Positions 7,614-17,687 of a DNA stretch of 34,838 bases are shown here, in pieces. A model generated the notes under the pieces. That model was not told where the DNA came from, made no database searches, and saw only the letters and a program-made list of their open reading frames with translations. How positions within the stretch are numbered: position 1 is the stretch's first letter; every line of letters begins with the position of its first letter. The position numbers and the translations under genes are program-made. The DNA is from a virus, in IMG/VR virus record IMGVR_UViG_3300047471_000921, positions 1-34,838 of that record; one strand, written 5' to 3'.

Positions 7614-7805
7614 ATGAACTTAAAAGAATATATGTTTAGACATGAAATAACCTATAAAAAGCTAGCCGAACTCTCAGGATATAGTGTTTCTTTTCTTTGT
7701 GCAGTAAAAAACGGTGGTCTTAAACCTACATTAAGAGCTGCTAAAGCAATTTCAGAAGCTACAAATCAAATCGTTTCAATTGAGGAGTTGATTAATGGAA
7801 CCTGA
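7614..7805 (+). CDS. Small Cro/C1-type helix-turn-helix regulator, 63 aa
   Basis: A 63-residue protein consisting only of a lambda-repressor-like DNA-binding domain: YKKLAELSGYSVSFLCAVKN is the two-helix recognition core (about residues 14-33), followed by the stabilising helices with PTLRAAKAISEA. There is no C-terminal dimerisation or cleavage domain, so it resembles a Cro-like switch or antitoxin-like regulator rather than a full C1 repressor. It has the best ribosome site of the region (AAGGAGGT). It is the first gene of the rightward early operon and faces the recombination operon across a palindrome-rich region, so it probably controls both. Confidence 0.8.
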   Translation: MNLKEYMFRHEITYKKLAELSGYSVSFLCAVKNGGLKPTLRAAKAISEATNQIVSIEELINGT

Positions 7806-8073
7806 AGAAATTGAAAATAGATATAGAAAAATTATTAAAGAACTAGGACTTAGCACATTAGATGCATTTATTGTATTGGCATCTTGTTTTGAAGTTTTAA
7901 TGCCTTTATTGACAGAAGAATTTTACACAAATCTTAGTGACTCTAGGAAAATCGCAATAAATATAGGGGTATATTTTAATTCTGTTTTGGATGATGAAAT
8001 TTCTGAAGAGCAAAAAAAAAGAAATGAGCTTATTAAAGAACATATAATCAAAAGATTAAGACGCCGTACATGA
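7795..8073 (+). CDS. Hypothetical helical protein coupled to the regulator, 92 aa
   Basis: A 92-residue, mostly helical acidic protein with a moderately hydrophobic centre (AFIVLASCFEVLMPLL), too mixed for a confident membrane segment, and a basic C-terminus (IIKRLRRRT). It overlaps the regulator gene by 11 bases, so the two are expressed together; a protein partner or anti-regulator is possible. Not recognised. Confidence 0.6.
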   Translation: MEPEEIENRYRKIIKELGLSTLDAFIVLASCFEVLMPLLTEEFYTNLSDSRKIAINIGVYFNSVLDDEISEEQKKRNELIKEHIIKRLRRRT

Positions 8074-8172
8074 TTACATGAAGGCAAAAAAAAACACTAT
8101 AGACATCCCAATGAGTGTTACAATAAAATTTATGTGAGGATTACTGGGAATCAATGACCAATATTTCTTCAT
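8074..8172 (-). CDS. Candidate 32-residue single-span membrane protein
   Basis: A small minus-strand frame starting MKKYWSLIPSN and continuing with INFIVTLIGMSIVFFFAFM, a single predicted transmembrane helix reaching the C-terminus. AAGAGGTTGATA gives a well-placed ribosome site before the ATG. It lies antisense in the 220-base gap between two plus-strand genes. The ribosome site and clean membrane helix support it; length alone would not. The role is unknown; lysis or membrane-stress peptides have this shape. Confidence 0.4.
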   Translation of the reverse strand: MKKYWSLIPSNPHINFIVTLIGMSIVFFFAFM

Positions 8173-8293
8173 TATCAACCTCTTAAATATTTATAAAGAA
8201 AATATTTTAATTTTATGGCAGCATGATTTGTCTTGATTGAAAAGTCAATCTAGGAATAAAAAAAGCCATAAGATATCACAAAAAGGGGTTTTT

Positions 8294-8572
8294 ATGCCAG
8301 ATATATTTAACTTGGATCTTCCTCCATATATGTATTTAAAGCAAGTATTAGATCATTATCCCAAAAGTGCATCGACATACATTGAACTTTGGAGACATAA
8401 AGATAAAAATAATAAAGTTGTGATGAGTAATGAGGAATGTCGAAACATGTTTTTAATATCACCTACGAAATTTAGAAATGACCTTCTTTGCCTTGTTAGG
8501 GAAGGCTTAATTTCTGTCTTTGAAAAGGGTTTTAAGATGACTATTGAGATTGTGAACTTCGACGAAGAATGA
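8294..8572 (+). CDS. Winged-helix-like DNA-binding protein, 92 aa
   Basis: I start this at ATG 8294, preceded by AAAGGGG; a longer frame from TTG at 8237 adds 19 basic residues without a ribosome site. The sequence has short helices (AKSAS-like STYIELW, then MSNEECRNMFLISPTKFRND) followed by LLCLVREGLISVFEKG, the wing pattern of winged-helix proteins. It is probably a transcription or replication regulator. It ends 95 bases before a strong terminator. Confidence 0.6.
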   Translation: MPDIFNLDLPPYMYLKQVLDHYPKSASTYIELWRHKDKNNKVVMSNEECRNMFLISPTKFRNDLLCLVREGLISVFEKGFKMTIEIVNFDEE

Positions 8573-8664
8573 CAACAGTAAACTTTAATTTGCTTATCTC
8601 AAGTCCTTTGGAAAATTAAACCGAAAGATCTTGTGATCAAAAGAAAAAGGGACTAAATTCATTA

Positions 8665-8808: not shown

Positions 8809-9678
8809 ATGTCTCATTCTATTTCAGATACTTATACAATTCATAATATTAAACTCGATGATCATTTCACTACAATTCACAATTCAAACTGGGAAATTCC
8901 TGGTCTTTCTTGGGATGCAAAAGGTCTTCTTACCTATATTCTAACAAGGCCTAAAAATTGGAAAATCTATTCAGATCAATTGGCTTCGATTTATCAAGGA
9001 AAGAAAAAAGGAAATGGCAAAGACGCAATTCTTTCGATGTTAAATGAATTAAAAGAATTTGAGTTTATTATTCACACAAAGTCCAAAGACTCAAAGGGTA
9101 AATGGATTCATAGATATGACGTTTATCCTATGCCAATTAGGGATTTTCAAAAAATGTTTCCAGAACGGGATTATCCAGGCCTGGATCATCCAGCTACGGA
9201 TAATCCCGTTATACTAACAAGAAAGGACAAAGTCCTTTCTTCCACTGAATCTTTTAAAAACAAGAAAGAACAACAACAAACGAACGTCGTTTTTTATGAT
9301 TCTCTCAACGATGATCGTTTATCCCAAGACGACAAGCAATCTCTCATGCGTTACCCCGAGGAAAGAGTCCAAAAAGCCTTCGAATTTGCTAAATCCACCA
9401 AGATAAAAACCACTTTGGTTCAGGTTTTGGTTTGGCATTGTACTCAAGTAAATCCTCCTTTGCCCGGTAAGAAAAATACTCTGAAACTTGAATGTCAGAA
9501 AGCTGCAATTGGCTTAAAATCTGAAAATTGTGAATTTCATGTGTCTGATGAAGGAGTAACTTTCGTGGCTTTAGTTGGTCAAATGCAGCCAATTACGATA
9601 AAATATACTGATGAAGATGCAAAAAACAAGATTTTACAAAAACTTAAACATTTTAAATTTAAGGAAATAAAAAATTGA
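8809..9678 (+). CDS. Replication-initiator-like winged-helix protein, 289 aa
   Basis: The N-terminal 100 residues have LSWDAKGLLTYILTRPKNW (about 33-51), YSDQLASIYQGKKKG and ILSMLNELKEFEFI, the layout of phage and plasmid initiator domains that bind the origin (RepA_N / DnaD-like winged helices). A polar linker of about 60 residues follows, then a C-terminal domain (about 165-289) with a basic end. A moderate ribosome site (AAGG) lies before the ATG. The gene follows an inverted repeat and antisense-RNA candidate and heads an operon of overlapping genes. As no DNA polymerase is present, it probably recruits host replication proteins. Initiation is inferred from family and context. Confidence 0.65.
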   Translation: MSHSISDTYTIHNIKLDDHFTTIHNSNWEIPGLSWDAKGLLTYILTRPKNWKIYSDQLASIYQGKKKGNGKDAILSMLNELKEFEFIIHTKSKDSKGKWIHRYDVYPMPIRDFQKMFPERDYPGLDHPATDNPVILTRKDKVLSSTESFKNKKEQQQTNVVFYDSLNDDRLSQDDKQSLMRYPEERVQKAFEFAKSTKIKTTLVQVLVWHCTQVNPPLPGKKNTLKLECQKAAIGLKSENCEFHVSDEGVTFVALVGQMQPITIKYTDEDAKNKILQKLKHFKFKEIKN

Positions 9679-11186: not shown

Positions 11187-11765
11187 ATGAAGAAATTACT
11201 CGCAAATCTTTTATTATTAGCTCCTATCAGCCTATTTGGTGGGCAATATATTGGTCTCCATGGTGGGACTGCTTATCCTTATCAAACCGATAATAAAGTT
11301 CATGGACAAAAAGTTGGATATAAAGTTGGTGCCTTATATGGATACGATTTTTCTAACAATTTTCGTGTTGAAGGTGAGTTAACTTACCGGTCTAACGACC
11401 ACAAAGAAAAATATAATGTTGGTGCAGATGATGCTCTTATATCAAAAGAGCAACGATATGGCCATAGCTTCTCTTACATGATCAATGGATTTTACGACAT
11501 TGGCCAAATCTCTTTTGCTACAGTTACTCCATTTGTAGGCATTGGGATTGGACTTCATCAATCAACTGCAAAATTGAAAATGCGGACGGATTTAGATTCA
11601 CATGAGACCAAAGAAAAAGATTCAAGCTTTGCTTACCAAGGTATTGTAGGTATAAAATACCCTATTTCCGATAAGATTAGCTTAGCTATGCAATATCATT
11701 ATTTTTGTGGTCAGTCTCATGTAAAAGATCATAGTTTTGGTGTGATGGTTGCTCATCACTTCTAA
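11187..11765 (+). CDS. Outer-membrane beta-barrel protein with signal peptide, 192 aa
   Basis: MKKLLANLLLLAPISLFGG is a Sec signal peptide. The mature part alternates polar and hydrophobic residues in about eight strands (YIGLHGGTAYPYQ, VGALYGYDFSNNFRVEGEL, SFAYQGIVGIKYPISDKI), with polar loops between, and ends in Phe (MVAHHF), the usual BAM recognition end. It resembles small Opa/OmpA-like eight-stranded barrels. The gene has its own ribosome site (AAGG), a likely promoter and a strong terminator, so it looks like an independently expressed cargo gene. It may alter the host surface, for example blocking superinfection as phage Lom-type proteins are suspected to do, but that is inference. 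Confidence 0.82.
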   Translation: MKKLLANLLLLAPISLFGGQYIGLHGGTAYPYQTDNKVHGQKVGYKVGALYGYDFSNNFRVEGELTYRSNDHKEKYNVGADDALISKEQRYGHSFSYMINGFYDIGQISFATVTPFVGIGIGLHQSTAKLKMRTDLDSHETKEKDSSFAYQGIVGIKYPISDKISLAMQYHYFCGQSHVKDHSFGVMVAHHF

Positions 11766-15053: not shown

Positions 15054-17129
15054 ATGTCATGGCCCACCTCAAATCCAATTGCACGTGAATTAGAAGATTT
15101 CTGGCAACAAAGTCAAAGCTTATTTCAGCAATGGTGGTTTGAGGCGAACCTTGATCTGAATATGGTTGCGGGCAATCAAACCAATAATAACTATGCTTTT
15201 GGTTTGAATGCCCAAAACCGCAAAGACCTTACATTCAATAAAATTCTTCGTGTCATCAATATGATAGATGGCTTCCAGCGTGACCATAGACTAGCCAATA
15301 TCATTAAACCAGCTGACAATGATCCTGATATGGGTGAAACTGCTGATCAGCGTAGTACCGTTAATAATTGGGTGATGAATCAAACGGCGGGCTATGAGAA
15401 TATTTCTGAAAGTTTTAGAGGTTCTCTCATTTGTGGTCTTAATTTACAAAGTATTTGGATGGATTTTAGAGAAGATCCTGAGAATGGAAAAATTTGTATT
15501 GATCGTTTACCTTACAATAGTTTCTTAATGGATCCCTATTGGACAAAAAAAGATCTTTCTGATTGCAATCGTATTTGGACTCGTAAATATATAACACGCA
15601 TGCAGTTAGATGCTTTATTTCCTAATGCTGGAAATTCTGTTCCAGCTCTTCAAACTGGCTATGCTTCGATGGATGGCAAATTTCAATATCTTGCGCAAAA
15701 CTGGTATCAATATAACGTTCAAATGTATGCTTATGATGAATATTGGGTTAGAGACTGGAAAGATACTCGTAAACTTTTGGATACAAGAACAGGTGAAGTT
15801 GCCCCTTGGAATGGTACAAAAGAACAATTCCAATTATTAATGCGTATCAATCCAAATGTCAAACTTATCAAGGCTCGAATTCCAACCATTAAGCTTTGTG
15901 TTTTAGTTAATAACAACATTATGTACGAAGAGAAGTCACCTTATGGACTTGATCGCATGCCTTTCGTCCCGCACGTTTGTTATATGTTTCCCGAGGTCCA
16001 GAATTATAGTAGTCGATTTATGGGTATTCCGAGGAATATCCGTGATTCACAAATAGAGCTGAATCGTCGACGAAATCGTCTTTTAGATATGTTAGATGCT
16101 CAAATACAATCTGGTTTAATGGTGAAAGAAGATGCGCTTGTTAATCCTGAAGATGCATTCTTGGGAGGCCCAGGGAAAGCCTTATTCTTTAAAAATACTT
16201 CTAACTTGGCTACAGATGTCAAAGAATTCATGCCCCCGCCTGTTGGCCAAGGATGGCTCGAACTTATTCAGACAATCGAAAAAGAAATCATGGATATCGT
16301 GGGACCGGAAGAATTATTTGCTCAGAATCTCGGCGCAAAAGAGATGTCTGGCGTACTTATGAAAATGAAAATGGGTGCAGGTTTAACGGGTCTTCGAAGC
16401 GTTTTTGACAACTTAAATGAATCTCAAAAGAATTTAGGCGAGATCATAGATGATCTTGTAATAAATAACTTCGGTGAAGGAAAAGTCGCTCATATTATCG
16501 GTAAGAAGCCAACTGAACATTTCTTTGAAAAAGAATTCAGTAAGTTTTCATGCGTCGTCGAAGAAGGAGAACTTACTTCAACGCAACGACAATATAAATT
16601 TCTTGAAGCTATACAGCTTAAACAAATTATGCCTACTGCAATTCCAGATGATTACATTATTGAATTATCTACTCTTCAAGACAAAAAACGTCTTGTTGAA
16701 ACTCAACAGAAAGCAGCGCAAGAACAAGCACAACTTCAACAAGCTCAAACTCAGCAAGCAATGGAACAACAAGAGATTCTTACACGTAGCTTAGAGGCTA
16801 AAGCTCAATCTGATTTTGCATCTGCCAAAGAAAAAGAAGCTAAAACATTCTCCAATATTGCACTTGGTGAACATCATGAAGCTATGGCAGTACAAGATCG
16901 AGCAAATGCTGCACTAGCAAATGCAAAAGCTATGAAAGAAATTGAAGAAATGGATGAAAACCATTTAATGAAATTAGCAAAATTCATGATGGAATTACAA
17001 GAGCGTCAAAAATCGATGGATAAAAGCGATGCATTACATTTGGCTGAAATGGAAGGATCTAAAATCGAGCTTGCAAAAATCCAATCTGAATTATCTAAAT
17101 ATAAACAACCACAACCATCTATAAAATAA
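15054..17129 (+). CDS. Portal protein, P22-like, 691 aa
   Basis: The dodecameric ring through which DNA enters and leaves the head. The size is close to the 725 residues of P22 gp1. Typical features are an N-terminal segment with FNKILRVINMIDGFQRDHR (about residues 61-79), then DMGETADQRSTV, a long alpha/beta body with FVPHVCYMFPEVQNYSSRFM and RNIRDSQIELNRRRNRLLD, and a Gln/Ala/Lys-rich helical C-terminus (about 540-690), comparable to the P22 portal barrel. The AAGG ribosome site is modest. A hairpin and a tRNA-like structure follow the stop. Identity as portal is firm; the P22 subtype is by resemblance. Confidence 0.92.
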   Translation: MSWPTSNPIARELEDFWQQSQSLFQQWWFEANLDLNMVAGNQTNNNYAFGLNAQNRKDLTFNKILRVINMIDGFQRDHRLANIIKPADNDPDMGETADQRSTVNNWVMNQTAGYENISESFRGSLICGLNLQSIWMDFREDPENGKICIDRLPYNSFLMDPYWTKKDLSDCNRIWTRKYITRMQLDALFPNAGNSVPALQTGYASMDGKFQYLAQNWYQYNVQMYAYDEYWVRDWKDTRKLLDTRTGEVAPWNGTKEQFQLLMRINPNVKLIKARIPTIKLCVLVNNNIMYEEKSPYGLDRMPFVPHVCYMFPEVQNYSSRFMGIPRNIRDSQIELNRRRNRLLDMLDAQIQSGLMVKEDALVNPEDAFLGGPGKALFFKNTSNLATDVKEFMPPPVGQGWLELIQTIEKEIMDIVGPEELFAQNLGAKEMSGVLMKMKMGAGLTGLRSVFDNLNESQKNLGEIIDDLVINNFGEGKVAHIIGKKPTEHFFEKEFSKFSCVVEEGELTSTQRQYKFLEAIQLKQIMPTAIPDDYIIELSTLQDKKRLVETQQKAAQEQAQLQQAQTQQAMEQQEILTRSLEAKAQSDFASAKEKEAKTFSNIALGEHHEAMAVQDRANAALANAKAMKEIEEMDENHLMKLAKFMMELQERQKSMDKSDALHLAEMEGSKIELAKIQSELSKYKQPQPSIK

Positions 17130-17154
17130 TTTAAATATTTATTATTTTATAGAT
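17117..17154 (+). terminator. AT-rich 14-bp hairpin across the portal stop codon
   Basis: Bases 17117-17130 pair without mismatch with 17141-17154 around a 10-base AT loop; the left arm contains the portal stop codon. It lacks GC pairs and a clean T-tract, so mRNA 3'-end protection or processing is as likely as termination. Confidence 0.5.
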
Positions 17155-17173
17155 AATCGGTAAAATATCAATT

Positions 17174-17241
17174 TCCCAAGAAGCTCGTTGAGCACTATTC
17201 GATTAAAATATGGGGAGTAGGTTAAAATCCTACCTTGGGAT
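17174..17241 (+). tRNA. tRNA-like cloverleaf with minimal D loop (tRNA pseudogene or mimic)
   Basis: All arms of a cloverleaf fall in order: acceptor TCCCAAG/CTTGGGA (17174-17180, 17234-17240, 7 perfect pairs), two linker bases, D stem GCTC/GAGC with a loop of only GTT, one base, an anticodon stem of CTATT/AATAT (four pairs and a terminal mismatch) with a 7-base loop CGATTAA, a 5-base variable region, and T stem GTAGG/CCTAC with loop TTAAAAT, directly joined to the acceptor. Against a working tRNA are the tiny D loop, G instead of T at position 33, loss of the TTC of the T loop, and no CCA in place. The nominal anticodon would be ATT. Confidence 0.5.
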
Positions 17242-17252
17242 CAACCAAGGAG
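17233..17252 (+). promoter_or_regulatory. Hairpin that can mask the ribosome site of the next gene
   Basis: CCTTGG (17233-17238) and CCAAGG (17245-17250) form a perfect 6-bp stem with loop GATCAA. The right arm overlaps AAGGAG (17247-17252), the ribosome site of the gene at 17259. The left arm is the same sequence used by the acceptor stem of the tRNA-like fold, so the two folds exclude each other. Confidence 0.55.
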
Positions 17253-17258
17253 TGTTTT

Positions 17259-17687
17259 ATGTGGGATCCAAATATTCAAGTATCAATTGCTACTCAATGG
17301 GATAAAATCGACATACTCAATCAAAAAGAGGATGAAGGATTTGAGTTAGTCCATCAGGAAAAAATCACAGACAGAAAAATAGTTTTAGTCTTTCGAAGAG
17401 TGCAACCAATTTTACAGCCATCTTACGATTTTATTCGTAGAAGGCCTTTAAGTGTTAATTCAGAGCCTATAAATGTTTTTAATCATGAGCCATTATTTAC
17501 AGGATTAAATGCAAGACAATCACCTGAGCCAAGTCCAAAAGAATTTCAGATTGCTAATACTGCACAAGAAGAAGCTAAAGAAAAAATGGTTCAGTTTATA
17601 TTAGAAGATTATCATCCTGAAGAGCCCGAAGTTGATGATATAGAATTATTTGAAACACCTATGGCTGAAACGGATGAAGATACATGA
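17259..17687 (+). CDS. Hypothetical acidic protein, 142 aa
   Basis: Start at ATG 17259, set by AAGGAG six bases upstream; an in-frame TTG at 17235 lies inside the tRNA-like element. The N-terminal 65 residues (WDKIDILNQKEDEGFELVHQ then KIVLVFRRV) look like a small alpha/beta domain. The rest is Pro- and Glu-rich and probably unstructured, ending in an acidic tail. It opens the small-gene stretch between portal and scaffold. Not recognised. Confidence 0.65.
   Translation: MWDPNIQVSIATQWDKIDILNQKEDEGFELVHQEKITDRKIVLVFRRVQPILQPSYDFIRRRPLSVNSEPINVFNHEPLFTGLNARQSPEPSPKEFQIANTAQEEAKEKMVQFILEDYHPEEPEVDDIELFETPMAETDEDT

Follow-up and report, generated by a model that had tools for sequence, protein, structure and literature searches.

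A degenerate tRNA-Asn with largely intact stems upstream of a ribosome-binding site in an uncultured tailed phage

Introduction

What is a cloverleaf-shaped RNA that lacks many of the usual loop bases of a tRNA doing between two phage genes? The question arises in a 34,838-base IMG/VR virus record, analyzed whole (hereafter the window), which comes from an uncultured virus of bacteria and is a tailed-phage genome. The element (17174–17241, + strand) lies in the gap between a P22-like portal protein gene (15054–17129, +; Pfam P22_portal, E 1.8e-62; PHROG 156) and a small gene encoding 142 amino acids (17259–17687, +). Its 3′ end falls 5 nt before the Shine–Dalgarno (SD) sequence of the small gene, AAGGAG (17247–17252, +), which is itself followed after 6 nt by the ATG at 17259. 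A first-pass annotation had suggested a decayed tRNA kept as an mRNA element. Here, we consider where the element comes from, whether it could decode, whether its stems are kept by selection, and what it may do in the message.

Results

Searches with the portal and terminase yielded about 80 related viral loci (given L-numbers). The small downstream gene has a weak homologue beside the portal gene in two of them, L012 and L013, and Pfam and PHROG searches with it returned no family match. Over the portal stop codon, folding and a self-match on the other strand reveal an A+U-rich hairpin of 14 pairs (17117–17154, +), almost all of them A-U; its counterpart in the L012/L013 gap is richer in G+C and terminator-like. 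The window also carries an outer-membrane beta-barrel gene (Pfam OMP_b-brl; 11187–11765), found as well in L009 (2268–2846) and L003 (3804–4385); it has a signal-peptide-like start and is an unusual cargo close to the terminase. Searches for a host in a bacterial genome collection with this outer-membrane protein, and likewise with the portal, found no relative.

The arms of the element follow one another in standard order and spacing, as the first-pass annotation had described (7-bp acceptor, 4-bp D stem, five-base variable region, 5-bp T stem). All lie on the + strand. The acceptor stem joins 17174–17180 to 17234–17240 (7/7 Watson–Crick pairs), and the D arm, GCTC-GTT-GAGC (17183–17193; stem 17183–17186/17190–17193), closes a loop of three with 4/4 pairs. 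The anticodon arm (17195–17211) has 4/5 pairs and the loop CGATTAA, with G33 and the anticodon AUU at 17202–17204, as called by ARAGORN in mitochondrial mode. After the variable region GGGGA (5 nt), the T arm, GTAGG-TTAAAAT-CCTAC (17217–17233; stem 17217–17221/17229–17233; 5/5 pairs), abuts the acceptor directly, and position 73 is T17241. Altogether 20 of 21 pairs are formed, all of them Watson–Crick with not one G-U, the sole mismatch being C27-U43 in the anticodon stem. The unusual features listed by that annotation are all in the sequence: the three-base D loop, the absent T-loop C (A56 replaces C56), G for T33, and the lack of an encoded CCA at 17242–17244. The geometry of RNase P and RNase Z substrates, a 12-bp acceptor-T helix with a 7-nt T loop, is present as 7+5 pairs and a loop of seven.

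Could such a shape arise by chance? Of the tRNA-finder checks that the first-pass annotation had proposed, ARAGORN returned nothing in bacterial mode and Asn(att) at the same place in mitochondrial mode, and covariance models recovered the element. Rfam RF00005 scores it at 31.3 bits, over the cut-off of 29 (E between 1.3e-4 and 1.8e-6 in different searches). A tRNA-Asn model, R1, for which the tRNA-Asn genes of five related phages were combined with E. coli asnT, gives it 42.4 bits (E 9.5e-11 in 444 kb, a value that is rough owing to short calibration). An Rfam scan of the whole window at the gathering threshold missed the element, presumably because of its fast or default filters. Within 16900–17500 a tRNA is the only Rfam family to reach a cut-off, with no match to a T-box or other leader. 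Phage records searched by BLAST with the element matched at E of about 9 only. Its fold is moderately more stable than that of shuffled sequences (z −2.4). We also applied a sequence-blind cloverleaf descriptor that scores stems only, out of 21, using dinucleotide shuffles of the whole window as the null; the element’s score of 20/21 was matched in 1 of 3,554 shuffles. Across the related loci, the scores of at least 18.5 belonged to tRNAs, the element, and one minus-strand overlap of a tRNA-Gly. The sole point in favor of a chance fold is that the gap is not conserved in relatives; against it stand the shuffles on stems alone, the tRNA-Asn model at E of about 1e-10, and the fact that the top 4 of 35 tRNAs compared with the element are all tRNA-Asn of relatives. 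Since the element is homologous to tRNA-Asn, we reject a chance fold, whose probability we put close to nil, despite the lack of conservation, which the first-pass annotation had named among the signs of one.

Several of the related loci carry normal tRNA genes, chiefly tRNA-Asn(GUU) (L017, L023, L027, L046, and L035). When 59 core positions were compared, guided by structure, with those of 35 distinct tRNAs from relatives and E. coli K-12, the element came closest to four tRNA-Asn(GUU) of relatives: L027 (41/59), L017 (36), L035 (35), and L046 (35). Other isotypes match at 15–34 positions. The D stem is that of the L027, L017, and L046 tRNA-Asn, and the T stem is that of L027. Because the top four matches are all tRNA-Asn and the tRNA-Asn model score is significant, these sequence comparisons identify the element as a degenerate tRNA-Asn(GUU) of this phage group. 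With the group’s tRNA-Asn(GUU) genes (L027, L017, L046, L023, and L035) it shares acceptor pairs U1-A72, C2-G71, and C3-G70 (in most), the D stem GCUC/GAGC, the T stem GUAGG/CCUAC (in L027), U35 U36 A37 A38, and the absence of CCA. It differs from them in a D loop of 3 rather than 7–8 bases, in G33, A34, A56, A8, and a discriminator U, and in being missed by ARAGORN in bacterial mode. Lack of a CCA does not in itself indicate decay, since none of the related phages’ tRNAs encodes one. We also dropped a reading as an attP or integration site: the element is a whole cloverleaf and not half of one, and no integrase was recognized in the subset of ORFs that was scanned.

Relative to tRNA-Asn the element has lost the D-loop G18 and G19, A14, A21, U8, U33, G34, C48, C56, and the discriminator G73. 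Of the elbow contacts, G18-G19 with U55-C56, U8-A14, and G15-C48 are all disrupted (loop GTT, A56, A8, A48), which bears out the earlier remark that the D-loop and T-loop losses match each other, as G18, G19, and C56 have gone together. Where a functional tRNA has U33 and an anticodon used in bacteria, the element has G33 and AUU. Asparaginyl-tRNA synthetase (AsnRS) recognizes the identity bases G34, U35, U36, and G73, and of these the element keeps U35 and U36 and has lost G34 and G73. With these losses, the contacts at the elbow and the U-turn of the anticodon loop are gone, as are two of the AsnRS identity bases, and the anticodon left is AUU. According to a review, bacterial tRNAs, and phage tRNAs likewise, largely lack anticodons of the ANN type, to which AUU belongs (PMC8007984). 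Judged from these bases, decoding by the element is very unlikely. A working but strongly reduced tRNA of mitochondrial kind, reading Asn AAU, would explain its acceptance by ARAGORN in mitochondrial mode, and mitochondrial-type reduced tRNAs do show the same short D loop and joint loss of the D-loop/T-loop contact. However, mitochondrial tRNAs retain U33 and decode, whereas a phage tRNA of bacterial type gave rise to the element; with G33 breaking the U-turn, an anticodon of the scarce ANN class, and the elbow and synthetase elements gone, we consider such a working tRNA exceedingly improbable.

The first-pass annotation had also called for alignment of the same gap in relatives. No tRNA-like element follows the portal gene in the nearest relatives, L012 and L013, or in the others among some 25 relatives examined, and the only other IMG/VR copy, L011, is the same virus at 99.96% identity. 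Conservation is thus absent, and the searches found no divergent homologue in which the stems could show compensating changes. In L012 and L013, the nearest relatives with a homologous small gene, the gap instead holds an intrinsic-terminator-like hairpin, a T run, and a TATAAT-like box, with no tRNA. In L017 the first base of a canonical tRNA-Asn directly follows a stop codon, and 6 nt separate the end of this tRNA from the next SD sequence; this same layout makes an operon-embedded tRNA-Asn upstream of a ribosome-binding site a natural ancestor of the element. An IMG/VR pattern search for tRNA-Asn with a D loop of 3–5 nt found nine sites, and only in this virus are the acceptor and T stem intact.

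Other tRNA-like stretches came to light in these searches. A tRNA-looking stretch just after the portal gene in L003 (7084–7150) scored 5.3 bits with the unfiltered model (E 3.2) and is not supported as a decayed tRNA-Asn. L109, a phage contig with 27 tRNAs, has another decayed tRNA-Asn (8830–8899, −) with a short D loop and the T arm lost. In L009 a tRNA-Asp(gtc)-like sequence (2169–2260; 28.2 bits) has A33, a weak D stem, and an acceptor helix that can be lengthened to 12 pairs; it directly follows the terminase stop codon and closely precedes the gene for the outer-membrane protein. L035 has a nine-tRNA cluster that includes Asn (7762–8576), and L034 (10094–10184, −) and L039 (12306–12396, −) share a 91-nt tRNA-like match of 37 bits that ARAGORN does not report. 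In L013 (6312–7567) a 30-nt junction repeat (..CAACCCTAGGACTTTATG, six copies) sits between successive small genes, spanning stop codon, SD sequence, and start; several proteins thus end in PTPAQP, and the arrangement resembles a cassette-type gene junction. The window does not share this motif.

To what extent have the stems been kept by selection? Against the L027 tRNA-Asn, 14 of the 21 pairs are unchanged, six have changed on both sides and still pair, one is broken, and none has changed on one side alone. The double differences may predate the decay, as stems vary among working tRNA-Asn genes. Among invariant core positions, 5 of the 14 unpaired bases and 0 of the 12 paired positions are changed in the element. 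We simulated neutral decay by letting the stems mutate at a given rate and counting the cases with at least 20 intact pairs. At the loop rate (5/14) the probability of at least 20 pairs is 0.0001, or 0.0026 with the rate itself taken as uncertain; at lower substitution rates it reaches 3% (rate 0.15) and 13% (rate 0.10). Stem survival in this model favors selection on shape as moderate evidence, and moderate only, because the element was singled out for its stems.

The 3′ half of the element (17223–17238) is nearly complementary to the ribosome-binding site (17245–17259), and a predicted alternative hairpin, UAAAAUcCUaCCUUGG / CCAAGGAGuGUUUUA (17223–17259, +), exclusive with the tRNA fold, covers the SD sequence. 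When 17165–17285 is folded, this hairpin is the minimum free energy structure at −28.9 kcal/mol versus −23.9 kcal/mol for the tRNA fold, with an SD-unpaired value of 0.012; the difference narrows to about 3 kcal/mol when a longer transcript is folded. The tRNA fold is predicted to form first during transcription and to be preferred until the RNA end passes 17248. Predicted SD openness is about 0.015, or 1–2%, in the full ensemble of uncut RNA and 0.34–0.60 with the tRNA fold held or the RNA cut at 17241/17242. The T-loop AAAA and acceptor CUUGG, both departures from relatives’ tRNA-Asn, make the complementarity; with relatives’ real tRNA-Asn placed before the same ribosome-binding site, folding leaves the SD sequence open at 0.44–0.52. 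Closure as strong occurs with about 1.5% of shuffled downstream sequences and at 6 of 149 SD sites of the group (about 4%), two of which are this site counted twice, and the SD-hiding fold was not seen in L017, L009, or L013. With such a fold expected by chance at about 1–4% and not conserved, the modeled occlusion is suggestive only, a hypothesis worth testing and not a finding.

Discussion

The idea of a decayed tRNA kept as an mRNA element can now be divided: the decayed tRNA is strongly supported, specifically as a tRNA-Asn, and its being kept as an element is possible and unproven. Our leading explanation, held tentatively, is a tRNA-shaped processing site of tRNA-Asn origin that acts in cis in the late mRNA. 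We infer the role in cis from stems that were kept while the loop bases for decoding and for the elbow were lost. In the late polycistronic RNA the cloverleaf would still mark a site for tRNA processing: RNase P would cut near 17174, and RNase Z, an enzyme that accepts tRNAs without CCA, near 17241. These cuts would punctuate the portal and small-gene messages, and a cut after 17241, or the tRNA fold alone, would free the ribosome-binding site from the competing hairpin, by folding prediction only. The 20 of 21 pairs that are intact despite the loop changes would suit such a site, as would the tRNA-Asn inside an operon in L017, an existing arrangement in the group, the CCA-less 3′ ends of relatives’ tRNAs, and a position between stop codon and SD sequence that fits. 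Against it, there is no divergent homologue, and the nearest relatives have a terminator instead. Bacterial RNase P recognizes the T-loop/D-loop elbow and pairs with the 3′ CCA; the element has lost the first and lacks the second. The stems were also noticed first, and their survival would be unremarkable at a rate of 0.10 (P 0.13 in the simulation); co-transcription of the portal and small gene is assumed.

Nearly as likely as this processing site is a pseudogene that is now functionless, a tRNA-Asn at an early stage of decay whose stems have not yet been lost. Few events would suffice, namely one D-loop deletion and about eight base changes; the gap is not conserved in relatives, the decayed tRNA-Asn of L109 is already without its T arm, and in the simulation 13% of cases keep their stems at a rate of 0.10. 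What speaks against a pseudogene is that the probability of intact stems is only 0.0001 to 0.003 if they changed as fast as the invariant unpaired bases, and that the 20 pairs are all Watson–Crick. The energetics of the competing hairpin raise a translational switch between the tRNA-like fold (SD open) and the hairpin (SD closed), set by kinetics, processing, or a tRNA-binding protein. It would draw on a hairpin 5 kcal/mol more stable than a tRNA fold that nonetheless forms first, until 17248, and on a complementarity that comes from the element’s own departures, where relatives’ tRNA-Asn leave the site open; yet equal closure in 1.5% of shuffles and 4% of group sites, noticed after the fact, its absence from L017, L009, and L013, and the smaller gap in the longer transcript make such a switch unlikely. 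A broader form, in which a phage tRNA gene was converted to a cis-acting leader whose fold or excision exposes the next ribosome-binding site while a competing fold of its 3′ half hides it, strikes us as doubtful. Among the published hypotheses for phage tRNAs is escape from nucleases (PMC12482277), and together with the anticodon loop altered at 33 and 34 it would fit an RNA acting in trans, released either as a decoy or as a tRNA mimic that resists nucleases, to counter tRNA-cutting toxins or synthetases of the host. With AsnRS identity bases G34 and G73 lost and no conservation, we regard action in trans as improbable.

Known systems resemble the arrangement in part. In tRNA-mRNA operons and tRNA punctuation, as in E. 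coli thrU-tyrU-glyT-thrT-tufB and mitochondrial transcripts, a cloverleaf likewise lies upstream of an mRNA on the same strand, where processing enzymes could cut it; those tRNAs are functional, whereas the element is degenerate and its processing a prediction. Like the E. coli thrS operator, it has a tRNA-like shape directly upstream of a ribosome-binding site (PMC9976931). That operator is a tRNA mimic in a 5′ UTR that imitates the anticodon arm for its own synthetase and has no real acceptor arm (PMC9976931), whereas the element derives from a tRNA gene and has lost synthetase identity bases. Among the papers searched, we found no description of a degenerate tRNA serving as a phage mRNA leader.

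The element, beside a ribosome-binding site, clearly exemplifies a phage tRNA that has lost decoding features and still has its cloverleaf stems. If the stems are not under selection, it is a tidy snapshot of tRNA decay and a reminder that such relics can escape both a tRNA finder in bacterial mode and a whole-genome Rfam scan run with filters; if they are, it would show how a tRNA gene within an operon can become an mRNA element for processing or control in a DNA phage.
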